Of a DNA stretch of 32,298 bases, positions 6,887 to 32,298 are shown piece after piece; position 1 is the stretch's first letter; each line of letters begins with the position of its first letter. The notes beneath the pieces are model-generated. The model searched no databases. It was given only the letters and a program-made list of their open reading frames with translations, and was not told the origin of the DNA. This DNA comes from Eubacterium sp. (GTDB lineage: Bacteria; Bacillota_A; Clostridia; Lachnospirales; Lachnospiraceae). The position numbers and the translations under genes were made by a program. The stretch lies in contig JAMPGN010000017.1 of assembly GCA_023663915.1 (NCBI GenBank), positions 1 to 32,298 on the forward strand, read 5' to 3'.

Positions 6887-7957
6887 TTACGCCTCCTCCT
6901 TGTCCGTCTTTCTGCCAGCCATAATGCGCTGTTTCAGACGTTTTCTGAAAAAGATCGCATTCGGACTCCAGTTGAATATCATCATGGCGATCAGCACAAC
7001 CGCATAGATCAGCATACGGTAATCGCTCAGCGCCCTCAAAACTTCGGGAAGCAATGTCAAAAGCACCGCCGCAATGATCGAACCACGGATATTGCCGATC
7101 CCGCCGAGTACGACGAATACAAGAATCAAAATAGACATATTATATCCAAAGTTTTTCGGCAGGGCATTTAATGTGGAAAGATTGTGCGCATAGAGCACAC
7201 CCGCCACACCAGCCAGAGATGCCGAAATCGTGAAGGCGATCAGCTTATATTTGGTCACGTTGATTCCTATGGACTCAGCGGCGATCCGGTTGTCACGGAT
7301 GGACATAACCGCACGACCCGTCCTCGAATGGATAAAATTAAGTGTAATAAAAAGTGTAACAAGTATCAATATTACACCGATTGTAAAATTCGAGTCATTC
7401 GGTGTTCCCGTAACGCCCTGCGCGCCCTTTATTAACGTCACACCGCCCTCTTCCAGATTCAGCGACAGTGCATCTTTCATGGTAAAATGGATTCCATTGC
7501 TGTCCACGCCGAGATACAGCGCATTGATGATATTTTTGATGATCTCACCGAAAGCAAGCGTCACGATCGCCAGATAATCACCTCGCAGACGCAGTACCGG
7601 AATCCCCACCAGAAAACCTACCAAAGCCGCTGCCGCCGCGCCGATGAGGATCGCCAGAAAAAACCGCAGTCCACCCGGCATGGCATCTTTCATAGCAAGG
7701 GAAAAGACTGCGCTGGAAAAAGCCCCGACACACATAAACCCCGCGTGTCCAAGACTCAATTCCCCAAGGATACCTACCGTCAGATTCAACGCGATCGCCA
7801 CAATCACATAAGTACAGAAAGGAACAAGAAGTCCCTGTATCAAACTGGATACATGCCCCGCAGACACAAGAAGCTGTACCACAATATATGCAAGAATCAC
7901 CATTCCGTAGGTGATTAGATCATTCTTAGTCGTTTTGTTTATTTTCATTTTTTTCAT
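6887..7957 (-). CDS. livM: Branched-chain amino acid ABC transporter permease LivM
   Basis: A 356-residue permease with about 9-10 hydrophobic segments. LivM-family blocks are ALNLTVGILGELSLGHAGFMCVGA near residue 60 (glycine/serine loop), LRLRGDYLAIVTLAFGEI (the cytoplasmic EAA-type coupling region), and GIGNIRGSIIAA near the C-terminus. The start at 7957 follows AGGAGGG with 7-8 nt spacing; an ATG three codons later is an alternative. It begins 12 nt after livH. LivH and LivM together form the membrane channel of the importer. Confidence 0.93.
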   Translation of the reverse strand: MKKMKINKTTKNDLITYGMVILAYIVVQLLVSAGHVSSLIQGLLVPFCTYVIVAIALNLTVGILGELSLGHAGFMCVGAFSSAVFSLAMKDAMPGGLRFFLAILIGAAAAALVGFLVGIPVLRLRGDYLAIVTLAFGEIIKNIINALYLGVDSNGIHFTMKDALSLNLEEGGVTLIKGAQGVTGTPNDSNFTIGVILILVTLFITLNFIHSRTGRAVMSIRDNRIAAESIGINVTKYKLIAFTISASLAGVAGVLYAHNLSTLNALPKNFGYNMSILILVFVVLGGIGNIRGSIIAAVLLTLLPEVLRALSDYRMLIYAVVLIAMMIFNWSPNAIFFRKRLKQRIMAGRKTDKEEA

Positions 7958-7969
7958 CGAAAATCCCTC

Positions 7970-8851
7970 CTAGACCTTCTCTTGGACTTTCTTGCCGAGA
8001 AGTCCCGTAGGTTTCACCAGAAGCACGATGATCAGGATACTAAATACGATCGCGTCGGAAAGCTGGGAAGAAATATACGCCTTGCTCAGATTTTCGATCA
8101 CGCCCAACAAAATGCCGCCGATAAAAGCACCGGGAATCGAACCGATCCCCCCGAATACCGCCGCCACGAAAGCCTTGATGCCCGGCATGGAACCGGTATA
8201 AGGAGTGAGCGCCGGATACGCGGAACATAAGAGCACGCCCGCGATAGCCGCCAGTGAAGAGCCGATGGCAAAAGTAATCGCGATCGTTCCGTTTACATTG
8301 ATACCCATAAGCTGTGCGGCTCCCTTATCCTCGGACACCGCCGTCATGGCACGTCCGATCTTGGTCTTTTTGACAAAAAGGGTAAGCCCCACCATAATAA
8401 CAATATTGACAATGACCGTCACAATCGTCACACTCTTGATGACAAGCTGACCGTCAAACAATTCCAGATTCGCAAAAGGCACAACATTGGTAAATGCCTT
8501 GGTATCCGAGCCAAACACGAGAAGCGCCACATTCTGCAGCAGGTAGCTTACACCGATCGCCGTAATCAGCACGGCAAGCGGGGACGCGCCGCGAAGCGGT
8601 CTGTAGGCAATCCGCTCAATGGTCACGCCAAGTACCGTACACGCCGCCATGGATATGATAATCGCCACGAGGGGATTCAATCCCATGCCGCTGACCGTCA
8701 CGAACACCACGTATCCGCCGATCATAATGACATCACCATGGGCAAAGTTCAGCATCTTGGCAATTCCGTACACCATGGTGTAGCCAAGCGCAATCAGCGC
8801 GTACACACTTCCTAAGCTTATTCCGTTTATCAAATGGGCTATAAAACTCAT
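7970..8851 (-). CDS. livH: Branched-chain amino acid ABC transporter permease LivH
   Basis: A 293-residue permease with about 8 membrane segments. It starts with INGISLGSVYALIALGYTMVYGIAKMLNFAHGDV, the family signature of LivH, and has the coupling-region sequence KIGRAMTAVSEDKGAAQLMGI and the C-terminal VFGGIGSIPGAFIGG. GAGGTG lies 5 nt upstream of the ATG. The gap to livK upstream is 228 nt and contains one copy of the palindromic repeat. The rest of that gap (8852-8992) shows no gene. Confidence 0.93.
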   Translation of the reverse strand: MSFIAHLINGISLGSVYALIALGYTMVYGIAKMLNFAHGDVIMIGGYVVFVTVSGMGLNPLVAIIISMAACTVLGVTIERIAYRPLRGASPLAVLITAIGVSYLLQNVALLVFGSDTKAFTNVVPFANLELFDGQLVIKSVTIVTVIVNIVIMVGLTLFVKKTKIGRAMTAVSEDKGAAQLMGINVNGTIAITFAIGSSLAAIAGVLLCSAYPALTPYTGSMPGIKAFVAAVFGGIGSIPGAFIGGILLGVIENLSKAYISSQLSDAIVFSILIIVLLVKPTGLLGKKVQEKV

Positions 8852-8992
8852 AGTTGCACCTCGGTTTCTCTATTGCATCGTTGTTGCATGTTTATTACAT
8901 GTTCTCAAATAGGTCGCCCGACAGAAATTGCCGCCAAGCTGGAGTATTGTGATATGTAAGATACACATCTGTTGTTGTCAAACATATTCGCA

Positions 8993-9079
8993 AGGAAGAA
9001 TCGTTCACGATTCTTCCAAACATGGTCTAGTTCTACTTAGGCACCGTATTCCGGTGCCTTAGCAGAACTCCATGTTTTT
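8993..9079. repeat. Composite palindromic repeat in livK-livH gap
   Basis: GGAAGAATCGTTCACGATTCTTCC (a self-complementary hairpin at 8994-9017) is followed by the long palindrome at 9021-9074. The latter is essentially identical to that in the livG-livF gap. It starts right after the livK stop. On the plus strand it is followed by seven T residues, on the minus strand only by TTT, so full termination inside the operon is not expected. A role in making livK more abundant than the membrane genes is plausible. Confidence 0.8.
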
Positions 9080-10360
9080 TTACATGGCTGTATAAGCGCC
9101 ATCCTTAATCACTACTGCCTTAGGAGCTTTGGTCGGCTCACCGGATGCATCCCATGTGATGCCAAGACCGGTCAGTCCGTCTACCTGAATCTCTGTCATG
9201 GCTGCTGATAATGCCGTGCAGATTTCCTCATTGGACATATCCGCCGTGATACCTGCCTTCTCCGCTGCCGCCTTGATGGTGTAGATCGCATCATAACCAT
9301 CCGCCGCGAACTGATTCGGGGTCTCACCGAATTTCTCATTGTATGTTGTGACAAACTTTACTGTCAGATCATCTGTCGCGTCTGCTGCGAAAGGAGTCAG
9401 AAGCATAACGCCCTCAGCAAGAGATGCGTCGAAATTCTCAACACCCAGGATACCGTCGAGACCGTCACATCCGAAGAACGCCACATCAAATCCCATGTCT
9501 GATGCCTGTTTTAAGATCAGCGCCGCCTCATTGTAGTAGATGGGGAGGAACACAAGATCTGCACCCGCATCTTTTGCCTGCTGCAGCTGCACAGAAAAGT
9601 CTGTCTTATTGTCCGCCGTAAATGCACCTGCCGTCACGATTTCAAAAGGCTGGTTTGCTGCTTCTGCCGCAAACGTTTCATAAATACCGGAAGAATATAC
9701 ATCGGAACTGTCATAGATTACCGCTACATTTGTTGCAAGGCTGTGCTCGCCAATGTACTGTGCAGATGCCGAGCCCTGATTAGGATCCGAGAAACATACA
9801 CGGAAAGAGTTCGGATTTGCAACACACTCTACCGCAGAACCCGAAGGTGTCAGCTGGAAGATATTGTCCTCTGCCGTCTTAGCCGATACTGCGATGGAAC
9901 ATGCGCTGGTAACGCAGCCGTCAAGTACCTGTAATCCCCAATCCTTCAACGTATTGTATGCGTTGACAGATTTCTCGGAATCTAACTCATCGTCCTGAAA
10001 GTTTAACTCAACCGTCATACCATTGATACCGCCTGCCGCATTAATCTCATCCACTGCGATCTGTGAACCGTTCATAGCCGCGATACCGTACACTGCTGCG
10101 CCTCCGGTCAACGGTCCGATGCCGCCGATCTTGAATGTGCCGCCTGCACCATCTGCCGCACCTGCATCATCCGCCGCTTCTGTATCTGCATTGTCCGCCG
10201 CTGTTTCATCTGCATTGTCTGCACCGGCGTCTTCTGCCGCTGCATCGTCTGTCGTTCCGGTAGATGCACTGCCGGAATCTGCGCCTGTGGAACCACAGCC
10301 CGCCAGCAAAGCAGCGGTCATAACTCCTGCAAGCACAAGGTTTAACATTCTTTTCTTCAT
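9080..10360 (-). CDS. livK: Branched-chain amino acid ABC transporter substrate-binding lipoprotein
   Basis: A 426-residue type I periplasmic-binding-fold protein. The N-terminus is a lipoprotein signal ending LLAGC (Cys at about residue 22), so it is anchored to the outer face of the membrane. An unusually long Ala/Asp/Glu-rich linker (about 25-72) follows. The mature domain begins FKIGGIGPLTGGAAVYG and contains the family features INAAGGINGM, AVIYDSSDVYSSGI and FAADGYDAIY. AAAGGAGGAG is 8 nt before the ATG. The first gene of the operon, it has its own strong promoter. The ligand is probably Leu/Ile/Val or related amino acids; family members bind other compounds too. Confidence 0.92.
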   Translation of the reverse strand: MKKRMLNLVLAGVMTAALLAGCGSTGADSGSASTGTTDDAAAEDAGADNADETAADNADTEAADDAGAADGAGGTFKIGGIGPLTGGAAVYGIAAMNGSQIAVDEINAAGGINGMTVELNFQDDELDSEKSVNAYNTLKDWGLQVLDGCVTSACSIAVSAKTAEDNIFQLTPSGSAVECVANPNSFRVCFSDPNQGSASAQYIGEHSLATNVAVIYDSSDVYSSGIYETFAAEAANQPFEIVTAGAFTADNKTDFSVQLQQAKDAGADLVFLPIYYNEAALILKQASDMGFDVAFFGCDGLDGILGVENFDASLAEGVMLLTPFAADATDDLTVKFVTTYNEKFGETPNQFAADGYDAIYTIKAAAEKAGITADMSNEEICTALSAAMTEIQVDGLTGLGITWDASGEPTKAPKAVVIKDGAYTAM

Positions 10361-10395
10361 AAATTTTCTCCTCCTTTTATTGACTAGAAAGATTC

Positions 10396-10429
10396 AAAAA
10401 AAGGACTCCTATATAATAATAAGAAGTCC
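10396..10429 (-). terminator. Terminator-like hairpin in livK leader (possible attenuator)
   Basis: On the minus strand GGACTTCT / AGGAGTCC (10429-10403, one G-U pair, 11-nt A/T loop) is followed by TTTTTTT (10402-10396). It lies about 10 nt after the expected transcription start and about 20 nt before the livK ribosome binding site. It therefore sits in the right place to limit entry into the operon, although the leader holds no obvious leader peptide. Confidence 0.6.
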
Positions 10430-10449
10430 CACCCTTGAAACTTAGAAAA

Positions 10450-10478
10450 ATCATAGTCAAATTCTACAATTTTGTCAA
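10450..10478 (-). promoter_or_regulatory. Strong sigma-A promoter of liv operon
   Basis: TTGACA (10478-10473), 17-nt spacer, TATGAT (10455-10450) on the minus strand. It is nearly consensus and places the start near 10443, about 80 nt before livK. Confidence 0.8.
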
Positions 10479-10558
10479 TAGTTTTTTGTTAATTTTCCTT
10501 TTTCCTTTAAATGCAAAAGAAATTTCTACCATTTCCAAGTAGAAATTTCCCTGCCCAT

Positions 10559-11080
10559 TCATCTGTATTTTCTAATTATTTTAGTTGATCGATCGCTTTC
10601 AAATACCCCTGCTACAATGTCTTTCTCATAATACTCTTTCTTTATACATGTAGTTGTATTCGACAAAGAATGACTCGCTATAAATGTAAATATATATTTG
10701 CATTTATCATTTTCTAGCGGGTATTTTGACGGGTCTATATCGAATGATAATCTAACAGCATAATCGGTATTATCTTTTTTACGCGTAAAGCGGTCAATGC
10801 TGATAAGAGGTGCCTTGGAAGGATTTATTTCGGTAACTGTATTAATACCGTCACCATGCATTTTACAATACACTAATCTATACTTTAAATCAGTGAGCAT
10901 TGCACTAGTATGATTTACAACTTTGATCCGGTATATAGCGTCACTCCCACCATCGTTCTCAACACAAATCTCATCCGATATTCTTATCTTTGGCTTAATC
11001 AGCATTAAAAAGAGCGCATAACAAAGTGATGCTATAATACCGGAAACCACACCAATAATGATACTGCTTCCAATCCCCAA
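10559..11080 (-). CDS. Hypothetical membrane-anchored protein, 173 aa
   Basis: One N-terminal membrane helix (about residues 3-27, GIGSSIIIGVVSGIIASLCYALFLMLI) precedes a soluble beta-rich domain. The domain contains the segments KPKIRISDEI, YRIKVVNHTSAMLTDLKYRL and YAVRLSFDID and ends in a basic tail. The start is a TTG at 11080 with AAGGGGGAG 6 nt upstream; no in-frame ATG fits better. I do not recognise the family. The segment IYRIKVVNHT suggests an immunoglobulin-like strand pattern, but this is a weak guess. The gene stands alone between the liv promoter and the amylase gene. Confidence 0.7.
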   Translation of the reverse strand: MGIGSSIIIGVVSGIIASLCYALFLMLIKPKIRISDEICVENDGGSDAIYRIKVVNHTSAMLTDLKYRLVYCKMHGDGINTVTEINPSKAPLISIDRFTRKKDNTDYAVRLSFDIDPSKYPLENDKCKYIFTFIASHSLSNTTTCIKKEYYEKDIVAGVFESDRSTKIIRKYR

Positions 11081-11130
11081 CGGCGTCTCCCCCTTTTCTT
11101 TAGTACAATCAAACGTTCAAACTGCCAAGC

Positions 11131-11154
11131 CTAATGATTGATTTCTCCTCTCAT
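11131..11154 (-). other. Possible 7-codon upstream ORF
   Basis: On the minus strand AAAGGAG, 6 nt spacing, then ATG AGA GGA GAA ATC AAT CAT TAG. The ribosome binding site is better than that of the 173-aa gene 50 nt downstream, so this may be a translated leader. There is no further support. The rest of the 251-nt gap holds only a small palindrome, TAGTTT-ATAC-AAACTA (11276-11291). Confidence 0.2.
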
Positions 11155-11331
11155 TTTGACTCCTTTCCGGCTCACATAAAGCCACCCTGCTTGTAATAAT
11201 ATTATATCATATTTTTACAAAACGTACGCATAAACAATGTAAAGAAAATATTATTTTCCTACATGTACGCTAATTATAGTTTATACAAACTAAAATGTCA
11301 AACGAAATCCCTAAAAATTCCAGATGCCCTG

Positions 11332-12642
11332 CTACCTCTCCATCTTCCAGAAAAACGCGCTATACGGGGGCAGTTCGCTTCCGCCGCCGAAATCGTGCGG
11401 CTTTCCGCTGATCAAATCCTCCGCCATACCGCATCCGGCGTCAAAATGCGCCGTGTAGCTCTCACTGTCCGCATTAATTGCCACAAGCACCCTCTCATCG
11501 TCGCACTTGCGCTCAAAAATGCACTGCTTATTCGTCAAAACCACGGAACGGAAATTGCCGTAATTTAATGCCTTAGATTCCTTCTTCGCCTTGGCAAGCT
11601 TCTCAATCCACTCACACAGATCATTCCACTCCGGCTGCTCGAAACATGCGCGCAGCGCCGGATCGCCCTCGCTCTTATTGGCTTTCGCGCCCCACTCACT
11701 GCCATAGTACACGCAAGGGATTCCCGGCATACCGAAACAGATCGCGTAGATGAGCGGCAGATGTTTCTCATTCGTCAAAATGCTGGCAACCCTTGTCACA
11801 TCATGGTTGTCCACAAAAGAAAACATGTGCTTGCCTTTGTACAAGGTCCAGTTTTCAGGACCAAACTGGCGCATTAAGGAATGGTTGATCTCAAACATGT
11901 TCATGCTGTTAAAACTGGAAAATAACCCCTTATAACATTCATAATTTGTAGCGGAATGAAGCATCTGCTCATTGACCATCTGGTTATAATCGCCGTGCAG
12001 CATCTCCCCCAGCAAATAGAAATCCGCTTTCAGACTATCCGTGAATCCCCGCAATCTTCTGACAAAGTCATGGTCTAAACAATATGCCACGTCCAGACGC
12101 AGACCGTCAATGTCAAACTCTTCCACCCAGCCCTTAATGCTGTCAAAAATATGGTTGATTACATCTTCGTGGCGCAGATTGATCTTCACAAGATCGTAAT
12201 GCCCCTCCCATCCCTCGTACCACAGACCATCGTTATAGTTGGAATTGCCGCCGAGATTAATGTTGAACCAGCTTAAGTACGGAGAGTTCTCACGATTCCT
12301 CAAAACATCCTGAAATGCCCAGAATCCTCTGCCCACATGATTAAAGACTCCGTCCAGCATTACCTTGATACCGTTGTCATGCAGATTCTTACATACTTCC
12401 TTGAAGTCCTCGTTCGTCCCCAGCCTGCAGTCAACCTTACGGTAATCCCTCGTATTGTAGCCATGCGTATCCGACTCAAACACAGGAGAAAAATAGACCG
12501 CATTGATCCCAAGCTTCTTCATATGGGGAATCCAGTCGTTTACTTTCAAGATACGATGTTCAAGTTGTCCGTCATTCTCAAAAGGCGCGCCACAAAATCC
12601 CAAAGGATAAATCTGATAAAAAACACTTTCATAAGCCCACAT
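11332..12642 (-). CDS. GH13 alpha-amylase family glycoside hydrolase (cytoplasmic)
   Basis: A 436-residue enzyme without signal peptide, so it should act inside the cell on imported malto-oligosaccharides. The four GH13 conserved regions are present: DGVFNH (97-102), GLRLDVA with nucleophile D184, LLGEML with acid/base E213, and FVDNHDVTR with the transition-state Asp D281. The (beta/alpha)8 barrel starts almost at residue 1 (SVFYQIYPLGFCG). A short C-terminal beta domain follows from about 365. There is no N-terminal domain of the neopullulanase type, and the subfamily is not decided here. AGAGGAG is 8 nt before the ATG. The gene is monocistronic with its own promoter. Confidence 0.9.
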   Translation of the reverse strand: MWAYESVFYQIYPLGFCGAPFENDGQLEHRILKVNDWIPHMKKLGINAVYFSPVFESDTHGYNTRDYRKVDCRLGTNEDFKEVCKNLHDNGIKVMLDGVFNHVGRGFWAFQDVLRNRENSPYLSWFNINLGGNSNYNDGLWYEGWEGHYDLVKINLRHEDVINHIFDSIKGWVEEFDIDGLRLDVAYCLDHDFVRRLRGFTDSLKADFYLLGEMLHGDYNQMVNEQMLHSATNYECYKGLFSSFNSMNMFEINHSLMRQFGPENWTLYKGKHMFSFVDNHDVTRVASILTNEKHLPLIYAICFGMPGIPCVYYGSEWGAKANKSEGDPALRACFEQPEWNDLCEWIEKLAKAKKESKALNYGNFRSVVLTNKQCIFERKCDDERVLVAINADSESYTAHFDAGCGMAEDLISGKPHDFGGGSELPPYSAFFWKMER

Positions 12643-12705
12643 AATATGTACTCCTCTTCTTTATACACATGAATTTTCATGTCATTTTACTTTTTCATAT
12701 TTTCT

Positions 12706-12734
12706 ATTCTATCACCGTTATGCACAATTTGCAA
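12706..12734 (-). promoter_or_regulatory. Promoter of amylase gene
   Basis: TTGCAA (12734-12729), 17-nt spacer, TAGAAT (12711-12706) on the minus strand. The start would be near 12699, about 57 nt before the ATG. Confidence 0.55.
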
Positions 12735-12794
12735 AACACGTTTTTATTGACCGAATGAGTATTATTTTTTGTAAACTAAAATCCGTTTCTCGAC

Positions 12795-12878
12795 TTTTCC
12801 ACAGGTTTTTATCCCTTTTTTTATAAAAACCTATGGAAAACGCCAAAGAAATCCCCAATTTCCACAGAGTTATCCACA
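12795..12878. promoter_or_regulatory. DnaA-box-like cluster with an 18-bp inverted repeat
   Basis: A long inverted repeat pairs 12795-12812 (TTTTCCACAGGTTTTTAT) with 12823-12840, 17 of 18 positions matching, around a 10-nt C/T loop. Each arm carries a TTTTCCACA- or TTTTCCATA-like box. A further TTTCCACAG is at 12860-12868 and a perfect DnaA box TTATCCACA at 12870-12878. It lies between the divergent amylase and nfo genes, upstream of the amylase promoter. The rest of this 500-nt gap holds repeated TTTTTGTCAA tracts and a TATAAT near 13009 that may serve nfo. Confidence 0.45.
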
Positions 12879-13078
12879 TTGACATTTATGTCATATTATG
12901 GTGACTCCACTTCCATTTTTGTCAAAAAAGAGATGTCATATTCGGAATATTCTATCATTTTTTGTCAATTTTCTTTTTTTCCCTAATGAAAGTTGTCAAA
13001 AAATGTTGTATAATACTTTTTGACTTAGTCAGTACATTTTGTAGCTTGACGCTGTAAGTCAATCAATATTTTGTACAA

Positions 13079-13116
13079 AAACGAGCTGCGCTCGTTTATG
13101 AGATTCGCGTCGCGAA
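13079..13116. repeat. Pair of short palindromes before nfo (REP-like)
   Basis: AAACGAGC-TGC-GCTCGTTT (13079-13097) and TTCGCG-T-CGCGAA (13104-13116) stand 28-65 nt before the nfo start. The core ATTCGCGTCGCGAA resembles palindromes at 20203-20216 and 25317-25330, each also shortly upstream of a gene. Confidence 0.5.
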
Positions 13117-13143
13117 CCCGAAAACATCTGAAAGGAGTATATT

Positions 13144-14007
13144 ATGCAGCCCAAATTAGGTTCCCATGTCGGAATGAGCGGCAAGGGGATGATGCTCAAT
13201 TCCGTAAAAGAAGCAATTTCCTACGATGCCGATACATTCATGTTATACACAGGCGCACCGCAGAATACCAAGCGAAAAGATATCTCCGAACTGAATATCG
13301 ATGCCGCGTGGGAGTGTATGCGCACCCATAATATGGAAGATTTCGTGGTTCACGCCCCCTATATCATCAATCTTGCCAATACAGTCAATCCTTCCACTTA
13401 TGAGATTGCCGTGGAATTTCTCGCTCTGGAGATTGAGCGCACGATCGCCATGGGTTCCCATATCCTGATCCTGCATCCCGGTTCGCATGTGGGCGCAGGT
13501 GTGGATGCGGGTATTGACCGGATTGCTCAAGGGCTGAATGAAGTGCTGACGAAAGACCAGGAATGCTCCATCGCATTGGAGACCATGGCAGGGAAAGGCT
13601 CTGAGATCGGGCGTAGTTTCGAGGAGCTTGCCGCGATCTATGACAAAGTCACCTACAGCGACAAACTGCGCGTCTGCATGGACACCTGCCACTTAAACGA
13701 CGCCGGCTACGATATTGTGCATGACTTCGACGGAGTCATTGACCGATTTGATCAGTTGATCGGGAAAGACCAGATTGCGCTATTTCACATTAATGATAGC
13801 AAGAACGAACGCGGCGCGGGCAAAGACCGGCACGCCAACATTGGAGAAGGTACGATCGGAATAAAAGCTCTGCGCTATATTGTCCATCACCCCGACTTCA
13901 TCAGTCTGCCTAAGATACTGGAAACACCCTATATTCCCTCATTGACTGAACCGGACAAGAAAGTTGCGCCTTACAAAGAGGAGATCGCGCTGCTGCGGCA
14001 ATCATAA
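13144..14007 (+). CDS. nfo: Deoxyribonuclease IV (AP endonuclease, Nfo)
   Basis: A 287-residue TIM-barrel endonuclease that cuts 5' to abasic sites in base excision repair, using three metal ions. Family blocks in order are [10 protein letters not shown] (near residue 6), [47 protein letters not shown], and [26 protein letters not shown] (about 218-243). The metal-binding His, Glu and Asp residues are all visible. AAAGGAG is 6 nt before the ATG, and the length is normal for the family. It is transcribed alone, divergent from the amylase gene, and ends in a terminator facing the helicase gene. Confidence 0.96.
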
Positions 14008-17236: not shown

Positions 17237-18055
17237 TCATTTCCGGTCAAATTCGACCATATAATCTTGGAATCGCAAAGGCAGCATCTGCCGCTGTAAC
17301 CGAATGTTTCTGCGCTCTTTGATCCCGATTGTCTGATGAAAAATGGCAAATAATTCCTGATACTTAAACTCGCTGCCAGACCATCTCATAGCCTCCTCTC
17401 CGACGCCTTCCACGCCGGACACAAGATACCACTCTTCCTTCGCCGGATGCACACCGAATAAATTCCGCTTCTCGTCATGAATCATAAAATTCTCCGGTGC
17501 CAGCCTGTCAGCAAAATGCGGCATCACAAAAGGCATGACATTATTCTTCGGCCCGATCCGCGAATACAGGATTCCCTGTTCCAGCTCTTGAAATCTTATA
17601 AATTCCAACTCACAATGTGCCTCATTGGCGGTGCATCTGGCAAGTTCAAACACCTTACGGACATAAGGATTTCGCAGATTCTCCATCGTCCGCCTGCCAT
17701 TGCCCGCAGTGATCCCATCTACGACTGTACGATAAATGGCATCTCCCTTGTCCTTATCATAAGATGCCGCCGCACGACAGAGCGTTACATATACTTCTTC
17801 TCCCAAACGTTCCCTAAGGGTACGCGCTACCTTATCAGTTTTGACCGAATCCGGCTGACTATACACATACTTTGCAAATAACCTGTAATTTTCTTCCTCG
17901 CCCACCTGAAGATGAAGATGCTCATGTCTTTCCTTTAAGGCATAGGCATCATAAATTGCCGTAAATATTCCCTCAAGTGAATCCTCACAGATAATATATT
18001 TCTCTTCCATATTATATGTTACTCCGTATATATGCCGCTTCTGCTTCCCATTCAT
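17237..18055 (-). CDS. TIGR03915 family putative DNA repair protein (DUF4130)
   Basis: A 272-residue protein (257 if translation starts at the second Met, 18010). It begins with the family N-terminus YIICEDSLEGIFTAIYDAY and ends with a DUF4130 region: FVMPHFADRLAPENFMIHDEKRNLFGVHP, then LRFQDYMVEFDRK. The family is always, or nearly always, next to the TIGR03916 radical SAM gene, and the C-terminal part is related to uracil-DNA-glycosylase folds. Here the ATG overlaps the radical SAM stop as ATGA, so the two are translated together. CGGAG 11 nt before 18010 supports the shorter alternative. Probable function: partner in repair of an unknown DNA lesion. Confidence 0.88.
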   Translation of the reverse strand: MNGKQKRHIYGVTYNMEEKYIICEDSLEGIFTAIYDAYALKERHEHLHLQVGEEENYRLFAKYVYSQPDSVKTDKVARTLRERLGEEVYVTLCRAAASYDKDKGDAIYRTVVDGITAGNGRRTMENLRNPYVRKVFELARCTANEAHCELEFIRFQELEQGILYSRIGPKNNVMPFVMPHFADRLAPENFMIHDEKRNLFGVHPAKEEWYLVSGVEGVGEEAMRWSGSEFKYQELFAIFHQTIGIKERRNIRLQRQMLPLRFQDYMVEFDRK

Positions 18056-19377
18056 AAAGTTTCAAGAATCATCCCTTCATCAAACAGAGTCATCTGACGG
18101 TAAGTTGTGCCGTCCGCCATAAAAGGTAGTTTCTCGCCTTTTCCCATCTGGTTCTGATAAGTCAGATTCCGCACAATATACTCTTCATCAATCTTCGTCG
18201 GGTACATCATCCTGCCGTTGCATGTGATAAAATACAGTGCGCGTTTTAGAACGATACCCATCTTCTTTAAATCTTCAAACGTCAGGCTTCCAAACCGTCT
18301 GGCGGCTATGATGCGCCTTGCGCTCTTGACCCCTATTCCTGGAATACGCAGAAGCAGTCTGTAATCCGCACGATTGACCTCAACCGGAAATACTTCCAGA
18401 TGCCTCACCGCCCAATCCGCCTTCGGATCGATCGCCATATTGAAATTCGGACGTTCTGCCGTCAACAGCTCGTCCACCTTAAAATCATAGAATCTGAGCA
18501 GCCAGTCCGCCTGATACAGCCTATGCTCACGCAAAAGCGGTGTTCCGCCCGCAGCCATCGGAAGCTCCTTATCCTCATTGACATTCACAAAGGCGGAATA
18601 ATACACTCTCTTTAGAGAAAATTTATCGTATAAATTCTCCGCCACTGACATGATCTGGTAATCGCTCTCCGGCAGCGCTCCTACCACCATCTGCGTAGAC
18701 TGTCCCGCCGCGCAGAAATGGGGCGCATGCTTATATAAGGTAAGTTCGTTCTTATTCTCCGTAATGCCATTCTGAATCAGCCGCATCGGTTTCAGTATAT
18801 TCTTACGGTGCTTGTTCGGCGCCATCTCCCGCAGTCCTTTTGCCGTCGCCATCTCCAAATTCACGCTCATCCGATCCGCCAGATATCCCGCCCGTTGTAT
18901 AAGCATGGGATCTGAACCCGGAATCGTTTTCACATGGATATATCCTTGAAAACGGTGCACCATGCGCAGCTTGTGAACCGTCTCACAGATCAATTCCATC
19001 GTGTAATTCGGACTGTACAAAATACCGGAACTTAGGAAAAGCCCTTCTATATAATTACGCCTGTAAAATTCCATCGTCAGCTCACAGATTTCATCCGGCG
19101 TAAAAGACGCCCGCGGCACATCATTCGATTTCCTATTAATACAATACCGGCAGTCATAAATGCACTCATTCGTAAGCAGAATCTTCAGCAAAGAAATACA
19201 CCTGCCATCCGATGCAAAACTATGACACAGCCCAGCCGCCATAGCATTGCCGATCCCCGTACCGTCATTCGCACGATTCACTCCGCTCGAACTGCACGAC
19301 ACATCATACTTTGCGGCATCCGCAAGAATCCTCAGTTTATCCGCAACCGACATCTGCGGTGAAATCCTGACTTCCAT
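18052..19377 (-). CDS. Putative DNA modification/repair radical SAM protein (TIGR03916)
   Basis: A 441-residue radical SAM enzyme. The cluster-binding motif CIYDCRYC (C72, C76, C79) has the standard CxxxCxxC spacing. An N-terminal block AAKYDVSCSSSG with CHSFASDGRC is typical of the family. The C-terminus has a helix-hairpin-helix element, LRIPGIGVKSARRIIAARRFG (about 345), that points to DNA binding. Distantly similar to spore photoproduct lyase in concept: a radical enzyme acting on DNA damage. It is first in a two-gene operon with the TIGR03915 gene. Its promoter is bracketed by two LexA boxes, so it is very likely SOS-induced. The ribosome binding site (GAAGGA, 12 nt) is modest. Confidence 0.92.
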   Translation of the reverse strand: MEVRISPQMSVADKLRILADAAKYDVSCSSSGVNRANDGTGIGNAMAAGLCHSFASDGRCISLLKILLTNECIYDCRYCINRKSNDVPRASFTPDEICELTMEFYRRNYIEGLFLSSGILYSPNYTMELICETVHKLRMVHRFQGYIHVKTIPGSDPMLIQRAGYLADRMSVNLEMATAKGLREMAPNKHRKNILKPMRLIQNGITENKNELTLYKHAPHFCAAGQSTQMVVGALPESDYQIMSVAENLYDKFSLKRVYYSAFVNVNEDKELPMAAGGTPLLREHRLYQADWLLRFYDFKVDELLTAERPNFNMAIDPKADWAVRHLEVFPVEVNRADYRLLLRIPGIGVKSARRIIAARRFGSLTFEDLKKMGIVLKRALYFITCNGRMMYPTKIDEEYIVRNLTYQNQMGKGEKLPFMADGTTYRQMTLFDEGMILETL

Positions 19378-25820: not shown

Positions 25821-26648
25821 TCATGCCTGTATTCTTTCCTTCTGCGCTTCATATGCTGCGCGACATGCCTTGGCAAGCTGATCTGCACAGGAAGTCGGTC
25901 TTCGTCCGCAGAGCACACCTGACAATTTCTTCTCTATTTCTTCCACGGTCCAGCCATCCACGAGACGCGGGATCGCCTTTAAATTGCCATTGCATCCCCC
26001 GGTAAAAGAAATGTTCGTAACCACATTGCCATCAATATTGAGCTTGATTTCACTGGAACAGGTATCATGCGTCTTATAAATATACTCCATGACATTCTTA
26101 GGTCTTAAAAGGTTTACGATCCTATCCTCGACTTTCGACATATCTGTTGTCGGTTCAAAACGCTCCACGACATTTCCGTCCCGGTCAATCAAAAATTTGG
26201 TGAAATTCCATTTAATATCGCTGCTCTTTACAAAAACCCGGTCTGTCCTTCCTAAAGCACTCTCAAGCAGCGGCGTTAGCGGGTGCTCCGGGTCAAATCC
26301 CGCAAACCCTTTCTGTGATTTCAGATAAGTATAGAGCGGATTCTCATTCTCTCCATTCACCTCGATTTTGGAAAAAATCGGAAAAGTAATGCCATATGTA
26401 GAATCACAAAAACTTACAATCTCCGCATTGCTTCCGGGTGCCTGATGCCCAAACTGGTTACAGGGGAAATCCAGAATCACAAACCCTTCGTCCGCATATT
26501 TTTCATAAAGCTCCTGTAAACTGTCGTATTGCGGAGTAAAGCCGCACTCCGTCGCGGAATTAATGATTAAAATCACTTTTCCGGCATAATCCTTTAAAGA
26601 TATCTCAGCTCCGTTGGCATCTTCTACCGTAAAATCATAAATATTCAT
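25821..26648 (-). CDS. Glutathione peroxidase fused to a TSCPD domain
   Basis: A 275-residue protein in two parts. Residues 1-185 are a glutathione/thioredoxin peroxidase: SATECGFTPQY with the peroxidatic Cys, DFPCNQFGHQAPGS with the conserved Gln, and IKWNFTKFL with Trp and Asn. Residues from about 193 form a complete TSCPD domain of the TIGR03905 type: MEYIYKTHDTCSSEI, FTGGCNGNLKAIPRLVDG, LCGRRPTSCADQLAKA. Such a domain is usually a separate small protein. The junction is in frame, with a Met exactly where a free-standing TSCPD protein would begin. AGGAGG lies 8 nt before the ATG at 26648. The two parts likely detoxify peroxide and bind metal or a nucleotide-related ligand; the joint function is unknown. 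Confidence 0.88.
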   Translation of the reverse strand: MNIYDFTVEDANGAEISLKDYAGKVILIINSATECGFTPQYDSLQELYEKYADEGFVILDFPCNQFGHQAPGSNAEIVSFCDSTYGITFPIFSKIEVNGENENPLYTYLKSQKGFAGFDPEHPLTPLLESALGRTDRVFVKSSDIKWNFTKFLIDRDGNVVERFEPTTDMSKVEDRIVNLLRPKNVMEYIYKTHDTCSSEIKLNIDGNVVTNISFTGGCNGNLKAIPRLVDGWTVEEIEKKLSGVLCGRRPTSCADQLAKACRAAYEAQKERIQA

Positions 26649-26671
26649 CGTATCGTCCTCCTTCTGTAACA

Positions 26672-27145
26672 TTATAACAGTTCTTTGATCTGTTCGTCTA
26701 TCTTTTCCGGTGTAACAGTTGGAGCAAAGCGTGCAACCACATTTCCCTCCCGGTCAGCCAGAAATTTCGTAAAATTCCATTTAATCTGATCGCCCATCAC
26801 GCCCTTTTTCTGCGATTTAAGAAACGTGTACAACGGTTCTTCGTTCGCCCCGTTTACCTCGATCTTCTTAAACTGCGGAAAAGTCACGCCGTAACGCGAC
26901 TGGCAGAAACTAGTGATTTCCTCGTCGCTGCCCGGTGCCTGATGCCCGAATTGGTTGCAGGGAAAATCCAGAATCTCCAAACCCTGCGGCTGGTATTTCT
27001 CATATAAATCCTGCAACCCCTCGTACTGCGGCGTAAAACCGCATCCCGTCGCCGTATTGACGATCAGAAGAACTTTCCCCCGATAATTCTCAAGTGCAAC
27101 CTCACTGCCATCTTGCGCTTTTACCGAATAATCATAAATTCCCAT
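26672..27145 (-). CDS. Glutathione peroxidase family protein
   Basis: A 157-residue peroxidase with NTATGCGFTPQY (peroxidatic Cys, not selenocysteine), FPCNQFGHQAPGSDEEI, SFCQSRYGVTFP (probable resolving Cys) and IKWNFTKFLAD. Enzymes of this type in Firmicutes usually use thioredoxin rather than glutathione. AAAGGAGC is 9 nt before the ATG. It is the first gene of the peroxide operon and closely resembles the peroxidase half of the next gene, so the two look like a tandem duplication. Confidence 0.93.
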   Translation of the reverse strand: MGIYDYSVKAQDGSEVALENYRGKVLLIVNTATGCGFTPQYEGLQDLYEKYQPQGLEILDFPCNQFGHQAPGSDEEITSFCQSRYGVTFPQFKKIEVNGANEEPLYTFLKSQKKGVMGDQIKWNFTKFLADREGNVVARFAPTVTPEKIDEQIKELL

Positions 27146-27249: not shown

Positions 27250-27418
27250 CCATATTTTTCATTTTCTGTCAGCCACGTAATAGCTGCAGACAGATATGGG
27301 AAAAACAAGCGGCAGATTTTGCCGAGGCAGTTCCGTGGTCTGCAAAAGGTTTCTGTGGATACGATTAAAGCGTTTCCCGCAGCAAAGGTTCGGGAAAAGG
27401 AGTTAAATAAGTGTCAAG
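27250..27418. other. Intergenic stretch with a possible gene remnant
   Basis: No intact gene. A plus-strand frame in this stretch reads ADRYGKNKRQILPRQFRG and then VSVDTIKAFPAAKVREKELNK. It looks protein-like but has no ribosome binding site and runs into the large hairpin at 27419. It may be the end of a decayed gene; I cannot name it. Confidence 0.2.
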
Positions 27419-27462
27419 TTGAAATCCAGTGGAATTTTCATGCAAATTCCACTGGATTTCAA
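27419..27462. repeat. Perfect 19-bp inverted repeat
   Basis: Arms 27419-27437 (TTGAAATCCAGTGGAATTT) and 27444-27462 are fully complementary around a 6-nt loop. There is no T-run on either side, so it is not a classic terminator. It lies 100 nt downstream of the TIR operon and could cap its 3' end, or be a mobile-element footprint. Confidence 0.85.
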
Positions 27463-27562
27463 TCCTCTTATCTTTATAGACATATATTTTCCTAATGAAT
27501 ATGGAGTCCGCTTCCTACGTCAGTTATTTTTGATGTCCTCACTCTCCGGTCAGCGATCCAGC

Positions 27563-28378
27563 CTAATCATCTTCCGATAGATGCATGCTTTCACCTGTCA
27601 TTTCTTCCAGTTGTTCTCCTTCAATCAGATTTCCACTCAGCCATCCTTCCACATCATCGTCAGGTATATATACACGAATCCAATAACGCTCACCATCATG
27701 AGTCCATTCGTCACAATATAGTATCTCTGACTCCGCATTCACTCCGCCAATAATATTATTGTCATCAGCCAGATCGGTTTCACTTCTAATATTTGAACCC
27801 CTTTTTCCACGTTCGTTTAACCGGATATAAACAGGTTCTTTTTCTTCTAAAGCTGTCTCCTCCTGTTCTGACTCCCCAAAATCGGCGGCTTCCTCCATTT
27901 GCTGCCCATATAGATTATGCGCTTCCAGCCAATCCGTCAATTTATTTTCCACCTTAAGATACACCGCCTGCCCGTTGAATGATTTCACCTCTGCCCCCTC
28001 TGTAGGATGTGAAGCGCAAATCCAGATCAGAAGAATACCATATATCACAACAGAAAGCACTATATGACTGTTTACCGGATTTTTCCAGCTCGTATACCAC
28101 CGTTCCAAAAAAGTGTCTATTTTTTCTCCTATATTGGACAATCCATTGTCTATCCCATAAAAGAAAGAACCAACCCTCTCATGAAGCCAGCATACAGGTG
28201 TTTCAATCAGCAGATACATCCCTCTAAAAATACTTTTTAGCAAACAGGGAAAAAAGGATGCCAGACGAATGATGACCTTGCCTAAAAGCCACCAAAAAAC
28301 CATAATGAACAGAGCAATTAAAACTGCTGCGCGGATTCTAATATCCGCCAGAAAAAAATGTGATATCAAAGTCTTCAT
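27563..28378 (-). CDS. Membrane protein with C-terminal SH3-like domain, 271 aa
   Basis: Two membrane helices (about 16-40 and 104-122) flank a 60-residue helical stretch. An acidic, low-complexity linker follows (about 155-178). The C-terminal domain (about 179-255) contains PVYIRLNERGKRGSNIRSE and YWIRVYIPDDDVEGWLSG, the pattern of bacterial SH3 (SH3b) domains that often bind the cell wall. The tail is acidic. GAGGAA is about 9 nt before the ATG, and the gene begins 6 nt after the SPFH-like gene. As the last gene of the TIR operon it would put a component of the system in the membrane. Confidence 0.8.
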   Translation of the reverse strand: MKTLISHFFLADIRIRAAVLIALFIMVFWWLLGKVIIRLASFFPCLLKSIFRGMYLLIETPVCWLHERVGSFFYGIDNGLSNIGEKIDTFLERWYTSWKNPVNSHIVLSVVIYGILLIWICASHPTEGAEVKSFNGQAVYLKVENKLTDWLEAHNLYGQQMEEAADFGESEQEETALEEKEPVYIRLNERGKRGSNIRSETDLADDNNIIGGVNAESEILYCDEWTHDGERYWIRVYIPDDDVEGWLSGNLIEGEQLEEMTGESMHLSEDD

Positions 28379-28384
28379 CTTTTG

Positions 28385-29278
28385 CTATTCCTCTTCGTAT
28401 AGTTCATCTAACACATTATCAGCCTGTGCGTCTGTATCTGTCGCCCCATTCTGCCCTGTCTCAATTAAATTTTCCTGATGATCTACAATCTGTATCTTCT
28501 TGATCATCTTTCTGGCATCTTCCTCCGAAATAAGCCTGCGTCCCCGTAAATCATCAACCTTATTCAATCGCTCTTCATAGTCGGCATTTCTGAACCTGTT
28601 GATCTCAAAAATCGCTTCCCTTTCCGTTATTTTGCCCTCAATCACTTCTGTCCATACGGCATTTTCATAGTCAGTCGTCACACCCTTAACAAGATCCCTT
28701 GCCTGTTTCTTTATTTCCGCATCCAGATTCTGTTTGTCATTCCGCTTCACATATTCAATCGCCTCGACACCCGGTTCTGCGTCCACTACCGATATTCGAT
28801 ATTCAAACCCCGTTGACTCATCCATGGTATTGTAACTGGAAAGCTTATTCGTCAGCTCTTCATCCATTCCATCATACTCAAGTATGCTGTATTTTCTCGT
28901 TATTTTTCTTACGTCAAGCGTAAACATATTTGTGAAATAAGCATCCACATCCAAATTTTTATTATTGTAAAAAACGATTGGATTCTTTACCTGTATGACA
29001 GCTTTTACATAAATATCAAACGTATAGGATCTTTCTTTGCTTGCAGACTTAAAGCGAATTTCCTTTAAATAAGGATTTGTAGAGATTTCAACCAGGTGTC
29101 TGTACTTCCCGCGCCTGATTTGTTTTGACGATGTCCTGTCGTCTACAACAATATCGTCATTAACACCTTCTGTCAGGATATATGCCACTCCCTGCTTCTT
29201 ATAATTGGGTACTTGCGGAAAAAAATTGCATTCATATTCTCTATCGCTTAAAATCAATTGATTGTAAAACTCGTTCAT
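28385..29278 (-). CDS. SPFH/band-7-like protein, 297 aa
   Basis: A beta-rich N-terminal part (about 1-110) with GKYRHLVEISTNPYLKEIRF and YTFDIYVKAVIQVKNPIVFY is followed by an alternating alpha/beta stretch. That stretch includes the segment DVRKITRKYSILEYDGMDEEL and YRISVVDAEPGVEAIEYVKR. A charged helical C-terminus (about 185-265) is followed by an acidic tail. Strand-then-R.....YS...L...L..-GI order fits the SPFH (prohibitin/flotillin) fold; similarity is moderate and no N-terminal membrane helix is present, so confidence in the family is limited. SPFH proteins form ring-like scaffolds on membranes. The ATG overlaps the stop of the helical-repeat gene as ATGA. Confidence 0.6.
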   Translation of the reverse strand: MNEFYNQLILSDREYECNFFPQVPNYKKQGVAYILTEGVNDDIVVDDRTSSKQIRRGKYRHLVEISTNPYLKEIRFKSASKERSYTFDIYVKAVIQVKNPIVFYNNKNLDVDAYFTNMFTLDVRKITRKYSILEYDGMDEELTNKLSSYNTMDESTGFEYRISVVDAEPGVEAIEYVKRNDKQNLDAEIKKQARDLVKGVTTDYENAVWTEVIEGKITEREAIFEINRFRNADYEERLNKVDDLRGRRLISEEDARKMIKKIQIVDHQENLIETGQNGATDTDAQADNVLDELYEEE

Positions 29279-30741
29279 TTTTTCTCTCCTCTGCTGTTTG
29301 TATAAATTTTTATCAGTTTGTTATATATTTTTTTCGCAATACAGCCTTTCAGCTCTGATAAAAAAAGAAGGATGTCTTCCTGATAATCGACTGCATCCCT
29401 TGTCAGAACGTAAAAAAAAGCTGTAAGATGATTCAATGTCCCAGAAGAAACATCATAATTGGATATTTCCTCAAGATATGCCTGCAAAGTCCAACATAGC
29501 TGCCGGTACAAATCGTATCTCGTCATGATATATGCTAAAACAAAGTGCATATTTTCCATTTGTTCCTTCGAATCGCATGTAACGAATGGCAGATCAACCT
29601 TGTTTTGATCCACATGATAATATCCGTACCGAATCATCTTAAGGTAAATTCGTGCCAGTCTCTCTTTTCCCTGCCTATTGTCTGACTGGGATAATTCATA
29701 AAACACAAATGCCATTATTACTCTCACATTTGTGGCATTCCCGGCAAATAGAGAAATAAACCGTAAATCAGAATTCTTAAGTCCAGGCAGCCTCCCTTTC
29801 ATGGAACGAATCATGGTCTTATGTAATTGTCCGTCTATATCTGACCCATATGTATGCAGACAAACCAGCAATGCTGATTTCCATAACCAGTTGCTTTCCG
29901 ATTCCATCCATCTTAGAACCATATTTAAAATATCTGTCCTAAATCGCCTATCTTCTAATAATTCCTGCGCCAATCGTGCTATAAATCCAAGATTAGCCGG
30001 CTCTGCATATAATCTTTCAAACACCTGCATTCTGGAATATTGAAAATCTTCTGTGATAATACGGATAAACGCACGCACCACCTGATATACCTCAAAAGAA
30101 GTCTTATACTCAAACATCTCATATACTCTTATCAGCCAATTAATCACAGACTTTCTTAAATCCGGAAACTGAACCCATATATTACCTAAGACTTCTTCAC
30201 CGCCATCTCCATAGCCAATGCACCGCTGTCCATCATCTGTAATAAATATCTTCCCCTGAATAGCAGATAATGCCGCATTCAAAGGTATATAGGAATTCGT
30301 CTGCTCAACGCACGTTTCTTTCCCTTCTGGGTCTGCCTGCAGAACGGCAGGCAGGTATTCCATCAAAACATCTTTCAAATTTGCGTAATCGCCTATCGGC
30401 ACGATCTCAAAAGCAGAAAGTATAATAGCCAGCGCAATATATTCTCTCTTTTTACAAGTACCAAAAAACTCCGCACACTCTTCCATTTTTCGCAAATCAA
30501 AATTTTTTTCGTTTTCACCGCCTGCGTTAACTAAATCAAGTACCTGCTTAATATCTGCCTTGTTGTCAAAATTAGCATTTTGCACAAATATCTGAATCTG
30601 CGCCGTATTTTCGCGGGCAATGAACTTATTATCCGCTTTCTCCTTCACCAGCTCATCCGCTGTCTCAATCTTCTCTTTTTCCTCCTCATCATGTTCTTCT
30701 TTAACTGTTTCGTTTTTCTCCTCCATCTTCTCATTCCCCAT
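29275..30741 (-). CDS. Helical-repeat protein with N-terminal QIFVQN motif, 488 aa
   Basis: The N-terminus (1-40) is highly charged and disordered (Glu/Lys-rich). Residues 47-58 carry AQIQIFVQNANF, which repeats the motif at the C-terminus of the adjacent TIR protein. The rest (about 60-480) is almost all alpha-helical, with HEAT/ARM-like amphipathic helices such as LRKSVINWLIRVYEMF and FERLYAEPANLGFIARLAQELL, and no catalytic motif. I do not recognise the family. The layout (short sticky motif, then large helical array) suggests a sensor or scaffold that recruits the TIR effector. The ATG overlaps the TIR gene by 11 nt; an ATG at 30726 is an alternative start. Confidence 0.75.
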   Translation of the reverse strand: MGNEKMEEKNETVKEEHDEEEKEKIETADELVKEKADNKFIARENTAQIQIFVQNANFDNKADIKQVLDLVNAGGENEKNFDLRKMEECAEFFGTCKKREYIALAIILSAFEIVPIGDYANLKDVLMEYLPAVLQADPEGKETCVEQTNSYIPLNAALSAIQGKIFITDDGQRCIGYGDGGEEVLGNIWVQFPDLRKSVINWLIRVYEMFEYKTSFEVYQVVRAFIRIITEDFQYSRMQVFERLYAEPANLGFIARLAQELLEDRRFRTDILNMVLRWMESESNWLWKSALLVCLHTYGSDIDGQLHKTMIRSMKGRLPGLKNSDLRFISLFAGNATNVRVIMAFVFYELSQSDNRQGKERLARIYLKMIRYGYYHVDQNKVDLPFVTCDSKEQMENMHFVLAYIMTRYDLYRQLCWTLQAYLEEISNYDVSSGTLNHLTAFFYVLTRDAVDYQEDILLFLSELKGCIAKKIYNKLIKIYTNSRGEKK

Positions 30742-31252
30742 TGTAATTCTGAATAAAAATCTGTGTTTCTGCCTTATTTCCTTTGACCTTCATCATGCTG
30801 CCTGAATCAAAATCATCTTTTTTCTCTTTCTGCTTTTTGCATTTCTTTACTTTCGAAGCCACATGGGATGCAATTTCAGCCGCATTATCAGAAGGAAAAT
30901 AATTTTGTTTTTTCGCATCCAGCAATTCTCCGGGGAGTTCCGTCCCATCTAAATAAATCGGAATTACACTGGCATCTCCTCCATGTTTGGAAAAAGCAAT
31001 CCTTGCCTCCTCCATAGGCACCTGTTTCCTGACATAAAATTCGGAAACAAGCAGTATGACATACTTTGACTCAAGACCAAAAATACGATAAAAGATTTCT
31101 CTTTGATTTTCCCCGCTCAAAATACTCTGACATTCCGGAGCCGGCGCATAAAATACAGACAATCCCTCCGCTTTCAAATAATGATACACCGTTTCGGCAA
31201 ATTCTTCATTTTCCATAGCAAAAGAGATTGCAACATCAAATAACTTTCCCAT
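30731..31252 (-). CDS. TIR domain protein with C-terminal QIFIQN motif, 173 aa
   Basis: Residues 4-130 form a TIR domain: FDVAISFAMENEEFAETVYHY (strand A and helix A), GLSVFYAPAP (box 2 region), SKYVILLVSEFYVRKQVPMEEARIAF with the probable catalytic Glu at 81 or 82, and VIPIYLDGTELP. Bacterial TIR domains often cleave NAD+ or make cyclic ADP-ribose signals in phage defence. A Lys-rich linker (135-162) follows, and the last residues are TQIFIQNYNGE (163-173), matching the N-terminal motif of the next gene. GGAG is 10 nt before the ATG. It is the first gene of a four-gene operon behind a perfect consensus promoter and a long leader. Confidence 0.88.
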   Translation of the reverse strand: MGKLFDVAISFAMENEEFAETVYHYLKAEGLSVFYAPAPECQSILSGENQREIFYRIFGLESKYVILLVSEFYVRKQVPMEEARIAFSKHGGDASVIPIYLDGTELPGELLDAKKQNYFPSDNAAEIASHVASKVKKCKKQKEKKDDFDSGSMMKVKGNKAETQIFIQNYNGE

Positions 31253-31535
31253 TTTAAATTTTCTCCATCATCATTTTCATATCAACATATCATTTGGTAA
31301 TTCTCCGTCCTGCGGCATTCTAAGAACCATTTCCTTTTTCGTTTCATTCCTGCCTCTCCCCTATTCATAATCATCCCTGCCTCCGTCTCAAGTCACGAAC
31401 CAACAGCTCTGCTGGGAGATTTATACTGTTTCATTAAAATCGCCACAACTTGAAAACAAAATAGCTCAGAATGCTGTCCATAAGCACTTTATGGAATTTA
31501 GTTCGGAATGGTGAATGTAATTTGTAGTCGTATTT
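31253..31535 (-). other. Long leader of the TIR operon (about 277 nt)
   Basis: From the expected start near 31529 to the TIR ATG there is no long gene. On the minus strand it holds a weak hairpin (CCAGCAGAGCTGTTGG, about 31410-31425). It also holds a 28-codon frame that starts MNRGEAGMKRKRKW with GGAGG 11 nt upstream, and an overlapping short frame ending PQDGELPNDMLI. Either may be a leader peptide or a gene remnant. Confidence 0.4.
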
Positions 31536-31602: not shown

Positions 31603-32298
31603 TTATTTTTCCAAATGAATCAGCAGATCATCCAACATTGCGCCCAAAAAAGCCTCTGTGGGCTGCTCATTCCGTTCTTTTATTTCTATCATCTCCAAAA
31701 TATCCCTGTCTGATAAACATAGAATCAGCTTCCCGCTTTCACGAAGGCTTCCACGTACAACAGCAAGGGCATTTTCGTCGGCACCTTTCCTAGAAATTAT
31801 AATCGCCACTCTCCGCAATGCCTTTTCATATAAGTATTTTTCCGTTGTATATATTTCTTTTTGCGTAATTTTCCCACTGTAATTTTTAAACTCAAAAACA
31901 ATATATTTCGTATTAAAATATTGTTGAACCGTATTAAAAAAATCCTGATTTGATCCAGCCTTGATTTTACAGAACAAATCAAATCTATACATTCCATTAT
32001 CTGTATTTTCCTGCACATACCACAGTGCCAGGTAATCTCCCAAAACATACTTCAATATTTCAATGCAGACCTTTTCATATTGCTGCCACTGCTCTGTCCC
32101 AGGCTTAATCCGCAGTAATTTTTCTTTCAGGCTCTCATCTTCCGTCTTTTTCTCTATTTCACCAAAGATATATGGTTCAGGTTTTTGCGCCTCAATTATT
32201 TCTGTTGAATAATTTAAAAAGGCAATAAATTCATTTTCAATTTTTGTAAATTCTCTGAAAAGCCAGAGAAGATTTTTTACATCCCATATATTAATTCC
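31603..32298 (-). CDS. PD-(D/E)XK restriction-endonuclease-like protein (5' end cut by window edge)
   Basis: The frame is open to the right edge, so only the last 231 residues are seen; a TTG at 32055 is an internal codon, not a convincing start. The visible part begins GINIWDVKNLLWLF and continues IKPGTEQWQQYEKVCIEIL with a conserved Glu, then MYRFDLFCKI (core Asp) and YIVFEFKNYSGKIT (E-x-K). YLYEKALRRVAIIISRKG and a helical tail follow. This order is that of PD-(D/E)XK nucleases related to restriction endonucleases. The gene ends 39 nt before the TIR operon promoter on the same strand. It may belong to the same defence locus, but it is a separate transcription unit. Confidence 0.78.
   Translation of the reverse strand, partial: GINIWDVKNLLWLFREFTKIENEFIAFLNYSTEIIEAQKPEPYIFGEIEKKTEDESLKEKLLRIKPGTEQWQQYEKVCIEILKYVLGDYLALWYVQENTDNGMYRFDLFCKIKAGSNQDFFNTVQQYFNTKYIVFEFKNYSGKITQKEIYTTEKYLYEKALRRVAIIISRKGADENALAVVRGSLRESGKLILCLSDRDILEMIEIKERNEQPTEAFLGAMLDDLLIHLEK

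Follow-up and report, generated by a model that had tools for sequence, protein, structure and literature searches.

Bacterial immune signalling uses cyclic nucleotides, nucleoside triphosphatase (NTPase) receptors or direct recognition, and in both Thoeris and TIR-STING CBASS (cyclic oligonucleotide-based antiphage signalling systems) a TIR protein acts on NAD+. Dyrka et al. (2020) reportedly described BASS (bacterial amyloid signalling sequences) and the NLR amyloid signalosomes of bacteria. In the available parts of two papers on these motifs (PMC7889193, PMC12261475), a short motif is shared between the C-terminus of an effector and the N-terminus of its partner, the two being encoded by genes that adjoin or overlap; the reported effectors include TIR, effector-side motifs span 21-40 residues, and the hosts named are mainly filamentous actinobacteria and cyanobacteria. 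Effector-associated domains (EADs), as presented in the accessible portion of PMC7159879, are homotypic adaptors, often in neighbouring genes, of NTP-dependent conflict systems. Here we analyse a four-gene operon in a 32,298-nt stretch of Eubacterium sp. DNA (contig JAMPGN010000017.1; hereafter the window), in which a TIR protein and its neighbour, a helical protein, share a short terminal motif beside an SPFH protein and a membrane protein. As this arrangement is BASS- or EAD-like yet has no NLR as partner and no NTPase that we could find, and as the literature we covered showed no SPFH-TIR system, we propose that the products of the operon form a TIR signalosome scaffolded at the membrane and coupled by templating, a reading to which we give roughly even chances; its presumed function would be phage defence.

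The four genes and their predicted folds

The open reading frames (ORFs) lie on the minus strand, as do all features below unless stated otherwise, in the order TIR, G2, G3, G4, with overlaps of 11 nt and 4 nt and a gap of 6 nt, in agreement with the layout given in the original prediction, which had been made from the sequence alone. Against PADLOC-DB 2023, the TIR protein gave only a partial match, to PDC-S66 (E 1.2e-07), and G2, G3 and G4 matched no model at E <= 1.

Gene 1 (31252-30731; 173 aa), called a TIR protein from the outset, matches Pfam TIR_2 (PF13676) over about residues 7-115 (E 3.5e-11; 44.1 bits, above the cut-off of 28), followed by a variable linker and a C-terminal coupling motif. 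A protein search recovered 288 relatives; among the best 120 of these, to which our residue counts refer, the putative NADase catalytic residue Glu82 (codon 31007..31009) is invariant (120/120), so that the sequence retains a candidate for the active-site Glu on which the original prediction had hinged. Glu82 pairs with a Glu of 3h16 and of TcpB, which we take to be the catalytic residue there, in pairwise alignments of weak significance (E 0.016 and 0.34). By analogy with the TIR family, and given this residue, the protein may cleave NAD+; the effector role first ascribed to it fits both points, the activity itself being putative.

Gene 2 (G2; 30741-29275; 488 aa) has a predicted structure that is mostly helical and resembles an ARM/HEAT-like solenoid, preceded by an acidic, apparently disordered N-terminus modelled with low confidence (predicted local distance difference test, pLDDT, mostly under 50 across the motif stretch). 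It matches no Pfam family at E <= 0.05, and Walker A is absent from all 59 relatives found by protein search, the window's own included, which agrees with its earlier description as a large helical protein without an enzymatic motif. The further suggestion that it senses or scaffolds is compatible with the modelled fold, which would suit an adaptor, and G2 is best called a putative adaptor or sensor.

Gene 3 (G3; 29278-28385; 297 aa) has a predicted SPFH fold, a long helix and a disordered tail. It has no Pfam match at E <= 0.05, and its label as SPFH-like is supported instead by Foldseek, in which the predicted model drew 20 rows at E <= 1e-3, all of them SPFH proteins, with stomatin and prohibitin matched and QmcA-YbbJ (PDB 8z5g) among them. 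A membrane-spanning anchor is usual, not universal, in the SPFH superfamily; in G3 no 19-mer reaches a hydropathy of 1.6 (>= 1.6) in any of the best 120 of 187 relatives recovered by protein search, the set to which its residue counts refer. A variable linker leads to a conserved acidic peptide of the form [FL]Y-x-E-[ED] at the C-terminus (28388..28411); in 112/120, [FLM]Y falls within roughly the final 8 residues. In the G3 gene of one genome (L012 in G007), a single TAG lies inside the match near its end; since the profile extends only slightly further, it is probably the gene's own stop.

Gene 4 (G4; 28378-27563; 271 aa) comprises two hydrophobic helices with a conserved loop between them, an acidic linker and an SH3-like domain (about residues 181-265; 27584..27838). 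The two membrane helices originally proposed correspond to hydropathy peaks at residues 19-37 and 104-122; among 8 orthologues the second peak is sub-threshold in L003 and L005, and an extra peak occurs near 34-59 in L006 and L008. No Pfam match, SH3 included, was found in the window protein at E <= 0.05, and the SH3 assignment instead holds through its orthologues: SH3_3 scores below threshold in 6/8 and above cut-off in the diverged L034 orthologue, whose SH3 half is 57% identical to the window's over 86 residues. To judge from these sequences, the SH3 domain has apparently been exchanged between family branches, and the charge pattern of G4 suggests a cytoplasmic inter-helix loop and an extracytoplasmic SH3 domain.

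A motif shared by the TIR protein and G2

The feature that the original prediction overlooked is that the TIR proteins finish with a variable linker and then a conserved motif of about 20 residues, and that the core of this motif reappears in G2, within its disordered N-terminal part. In the window, the effector-side copy occupies TIR residues 153-173 at the very C-terminus (30734..30796), and the partner-side copy G2 residues 44-57 within the low-confidence N-terminus (30571..30612). The motif is 14-24 residues long, with a hydrophobic core flanked by Q/N; this core is a sequence indication of amyloid templating, and we infer both such templating and homotypic binding of the two copies. In a distant G2 relative (P0056), residues 1-20 form a different N-terminal sequence, which may represent a third class of motif.

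When species genomes were scanned by pattern with the G3 alignment, 37 matches were reduced to at least 8 loci, all in Lachnospiraceae, a family that includes Roseburia and Parablautia. The gene order is kept in 6/6 fully visible close loci, and the visible genes are in order in the 2 loci at contig edges; the nearest is L001 of Parablautia intestinalis, whose TIR, G2 and G3 proteins are 86-91% identical to those of the window. Profiles of G2 and TIR further uncovered a remote locus, L026 (genome G374), which with its relative L034 constitutes a second branch with TIR, G2-like and G3-like genes in the main-branch order; L034 also has a G4-like gene, and the L026 contig breaks off where the G3-like gene ends, or close to it. 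Thus the four genes stay together elsewhere, another point on which the original prediction had turned, in all six complete close loci and in the diverged L034. The L026 TIR matches TIR_2 (E 1.4e-11) and is 78% identical to that of L034. Profile comparison linked the diverged and main G2 with a probability of 80% (E 1.3e-5, 272 columns) and the corresponding G3 profiles with one of only 23% (E 9e-4), so that the diverged G3 counts as an SPFH protein by virtue of weak sequence similarity and gene position. In this branch the TIR protein and G2 both bear another motif, again alike.

These features can be assembled into a mechanism. G4 would sit in the membrane, with its extracytoplasmic SH3 domain anchoring to or reading the cell wall, and G3 would probably form a ring or cage held there by G4, much as SPFH proteins pair with NfeD. 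G2, with its modelled solenoid, could serve as a helical adaptor or sensor upon this scaffold. A trigger, such as envelope disturbance at phage entry, would cluster the G2 N-termini, whose motif would then recruit or template the matching TIR C-terminal motif by homotypic, possibly cross-beta, association. The clustered TIR domains would cleave NAD+, as their family and Glu82 suggest, so that growth stops and the phage is blocked. Set against the original prediction, the TIR effector, the helical adaptor and the SPFH and membrane proteins as scaffold all fit; the link between effector and adaptor had been missed.

The same motifs admit a different interpretation, which we judge distinctly less probable: rather than touching each other, the TIR and G2 motifs may both dock in one groove on either the SPFH ring or the G4 loop, a third component that would keep both on one scaffold. 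Short linear motifs behind variable linkers are typical of docking peptides, and G3 itself has a conserved acidic end peptide behind such a linker; a changed common acceptor would also switch both motifs, and G3 is strongly diverged in the second branch, as the 23% profile probability indicates. What speaks for direct coupling instead is the combination of an effector C-terminus with a partner N-terminus, adjacent genes and a hydrophobic, Q/N-flanked core, which is the BASS arrangement as the available part of PMC7889193 gives it.

Extended to its fullest form, the templated-coupling proposal would make this cassette an undescribed class of immune signalosome, combining an SPFH cage, an exchangeable cell-wall SH3 anchor, envelope-damage sensing and prion-like TIR triggering via a swappable motif, with no NTPase, cyclic nucleotide or NLR; this we advance tentatively, as somewhat short of an even prospect. 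If it is true, amyloid-style coupling would extend beyond NLR systems, into unicellular gut Firmicutes, and effector and adaptor would change motif class together. The cassette offers a compact, testable case for switching on TIR effectors without cyclic-nucleotide or NTPase partners: natural matched and mismatched motif pairs from the two branches make coupling specificity directly testable, and the stomatin/prohibitin-related membrane scaffold does the same for the part that SPFH assemblies play in immunity.

Distribution, genomic context and opposing evidence

The four-gene set is patchily distributed, being found in 1/397 genomes of the family of G001, 1/391 in the class, and 1/37, 1/60 and 2/16 genomes of three genera; every positive genome in these counts is already among the loci of the G3-alignment scan. 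Its GC content in the window is 0.394, versus 0.455 for bases 1-27000. Genome G372 retains a decayed 3' end of a TIR gene with a motif-like tail (L027, 6279-6470), and tblastn gave no match to G2-G4 in the 14 kb around this relic.

Outside the cassette, the window contains the C-terminal part of a PDC-M36A phage-defence candidate (31603..32298; PADLOC E 1.5e-11), which runs off its end and appears nuclease-like by eye. Near L001 lie a GajB-like helicase (E 3.9e-176), a large protein with an LmuA match (E 1.2e-06) and sub-threshold nSTAND matches, and a transposase; HD-CE occurs near L002, and a recombinase downstream of the cassette in L004. No evident defence gene was seen among the neighbours scanned in L005 and L006. 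Patchiness, low GC, the TIR relic and the defence neighbours together fit a horizontally moving defence module, without proving it. The support for the immune label of the original prediction comes from context and patchy distribution, and phage defence is its putative role.

The tight operon, together with the recombinase downstream of L004 and the transposase near L001, would also suit a module of toxin-antitoxin-like type or one that maintains a mobile element, with G2-G4 silencing a TIR toxin. Four conserved parts, including a membrane protein, exceed what an antitoxin needs, and G2 of both branches lacks a match in the plasmid collection; we consider this explanation very improbable.

Several observations weigh against a defence signalosome with templated coupling. 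The window TIR-G2 motif pairing is modest, 6 of 2000 shuffles reaching the same score; the L034 pair is weak (z 1.9), with the best whole-protein local alignment elsewhere; one high cross-branch score links the L026 tail to L004 (z 4.6); and the distant G2 proteins P0052 and P0054-P0058 give a poor fit, or none, to the tail profile. The TIR tail may have a different binding partner. Over its whole length, the G3 model reaches low TM-scores against SPFH chains (0.29-0.38, relative to the query), and the second branch is known from two related loci only. G2 has no match in the plasmid or phage collections, G3, TIR and G2 have no relatives in viral contigs, and the nSTAND match near L001 falls under its curated cut-off. 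Finally, L003 lies among flagellin genes and the genes around L007 resemble, by eye, those of flagellin and FliS, neither being an evident defence island; these surroundings are possibly an insertion hotspot.

Such flagellin contexts also suit a stress or envelope-maintenance module, in which the SPFH/SH3 pair monitors the envelope and the TIR protein makes an NAD-derived housekeeping stress signal rather than acting in phage defence; SPFH proteins are, moreover, involved in stress and in organising membranes. A housekeeping role sits poorly with a set that is rare and patchy even within genera and low in GC in the window, with the decayed TIR relic in G372, and with the known or candidate defence genes that lie close to L001 and to the window cassette, and we regard it as improbable.

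A sigma-70-like promoter (31564-31536), which precedes the TIR start by about 280 nt, matches at 12/12 positions, confirming the perfect promoter reported before; because a perfect match within 450 nt is present in only 2/9 loci (the window and L003), we give it little weight. Also upstream of the TIR gene, window 31288-31391 is 78% identical to L001 5670-5780 over 111 columns and, since this stretch lies inside a 221-aa ORF upstream of the L001 cassette, a remnant of that ORF may persist in the window. In L006, a 1995-aa protein without a Pfam or PADLOC match at E <= 1e-3 is encoded immediately downstream of the cassette (7636-13623). Beyond G4 in the window, a 20-pair inverted repeat (27418-27463; G-T allowed, loop 6), terminator-like on the plus strand, separates G4 from two adjoining glutathione-peroxidase genes (25821-27145), one of them fused to a TSCPD domain (25821-26672). 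Farther away, a Radical-SAM/HhH protein adjoins a DUF4130 protein (17237-19377), presumably a DNA-repair pair.

Relation to described systems

The original claim that no described system has this gene set is consistent with PADLOC-DB 2023 and with our search of the literature on SPFH combined with TIR or anti-phage terms, which showed no such system among the papers listed, most subscription journals lying outside its coverage; in one paper that surfaced, SPFH occurs a single time, among the references. For the scaffold, the closest parallel is the SPFH-NfeD pair QmcA-YbbJ, which likewise joins an SPFH protein to a small membrane partner with a beta-barrel domain. In NfeD that barrel is an OB fold; G4 is SH3-like, G3 lacks a membrane segment, and TIR and solenoid genes are added.

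As far as the available parts of the BASS papers go, the cassette is like those systems in its motif common to the TIR C-terminus and G2 N-terminus, its adjacent genes and its TIR effector. It differs in its partner, a helical solenoid that lacks Walker A and, with no Pfam match at E <= 0.05, also NB-ARC or NACHT, in having SPFH and membrane-SH3 genes within the cassette, and in its Lachnospiraceae hosts. With the EAD systems, as covered in the accessible portion of PMC7159879, it shares one copy on a core and one on an adjacent-gene effector, proposed homotypic coupling and TIR effectors, as well as bacterial SH3 domains beyond transmembrane helices; EADs, however, are small domains with NTPase cores, whereas here a motif of 14-24 residues occurs and no NTPase was found. 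We therefore do not place the cassette in either group despite the like arrangement, given that G2 is not an NLR and that no NTPase came to light. In common with Thoeris and TIR-STING CBASS, it would have a TIR protein acting on NAD+; unlike them it carries no SIR2/SLOG effector, STING or CD-NTase gene, and ORFs, Pfam and PADLOC revealed no ThsA effector gene beside the TIR gene within the cassette. Where those systems signal through a diffusible nucleotide, the signal proposed here would be one of assembly.
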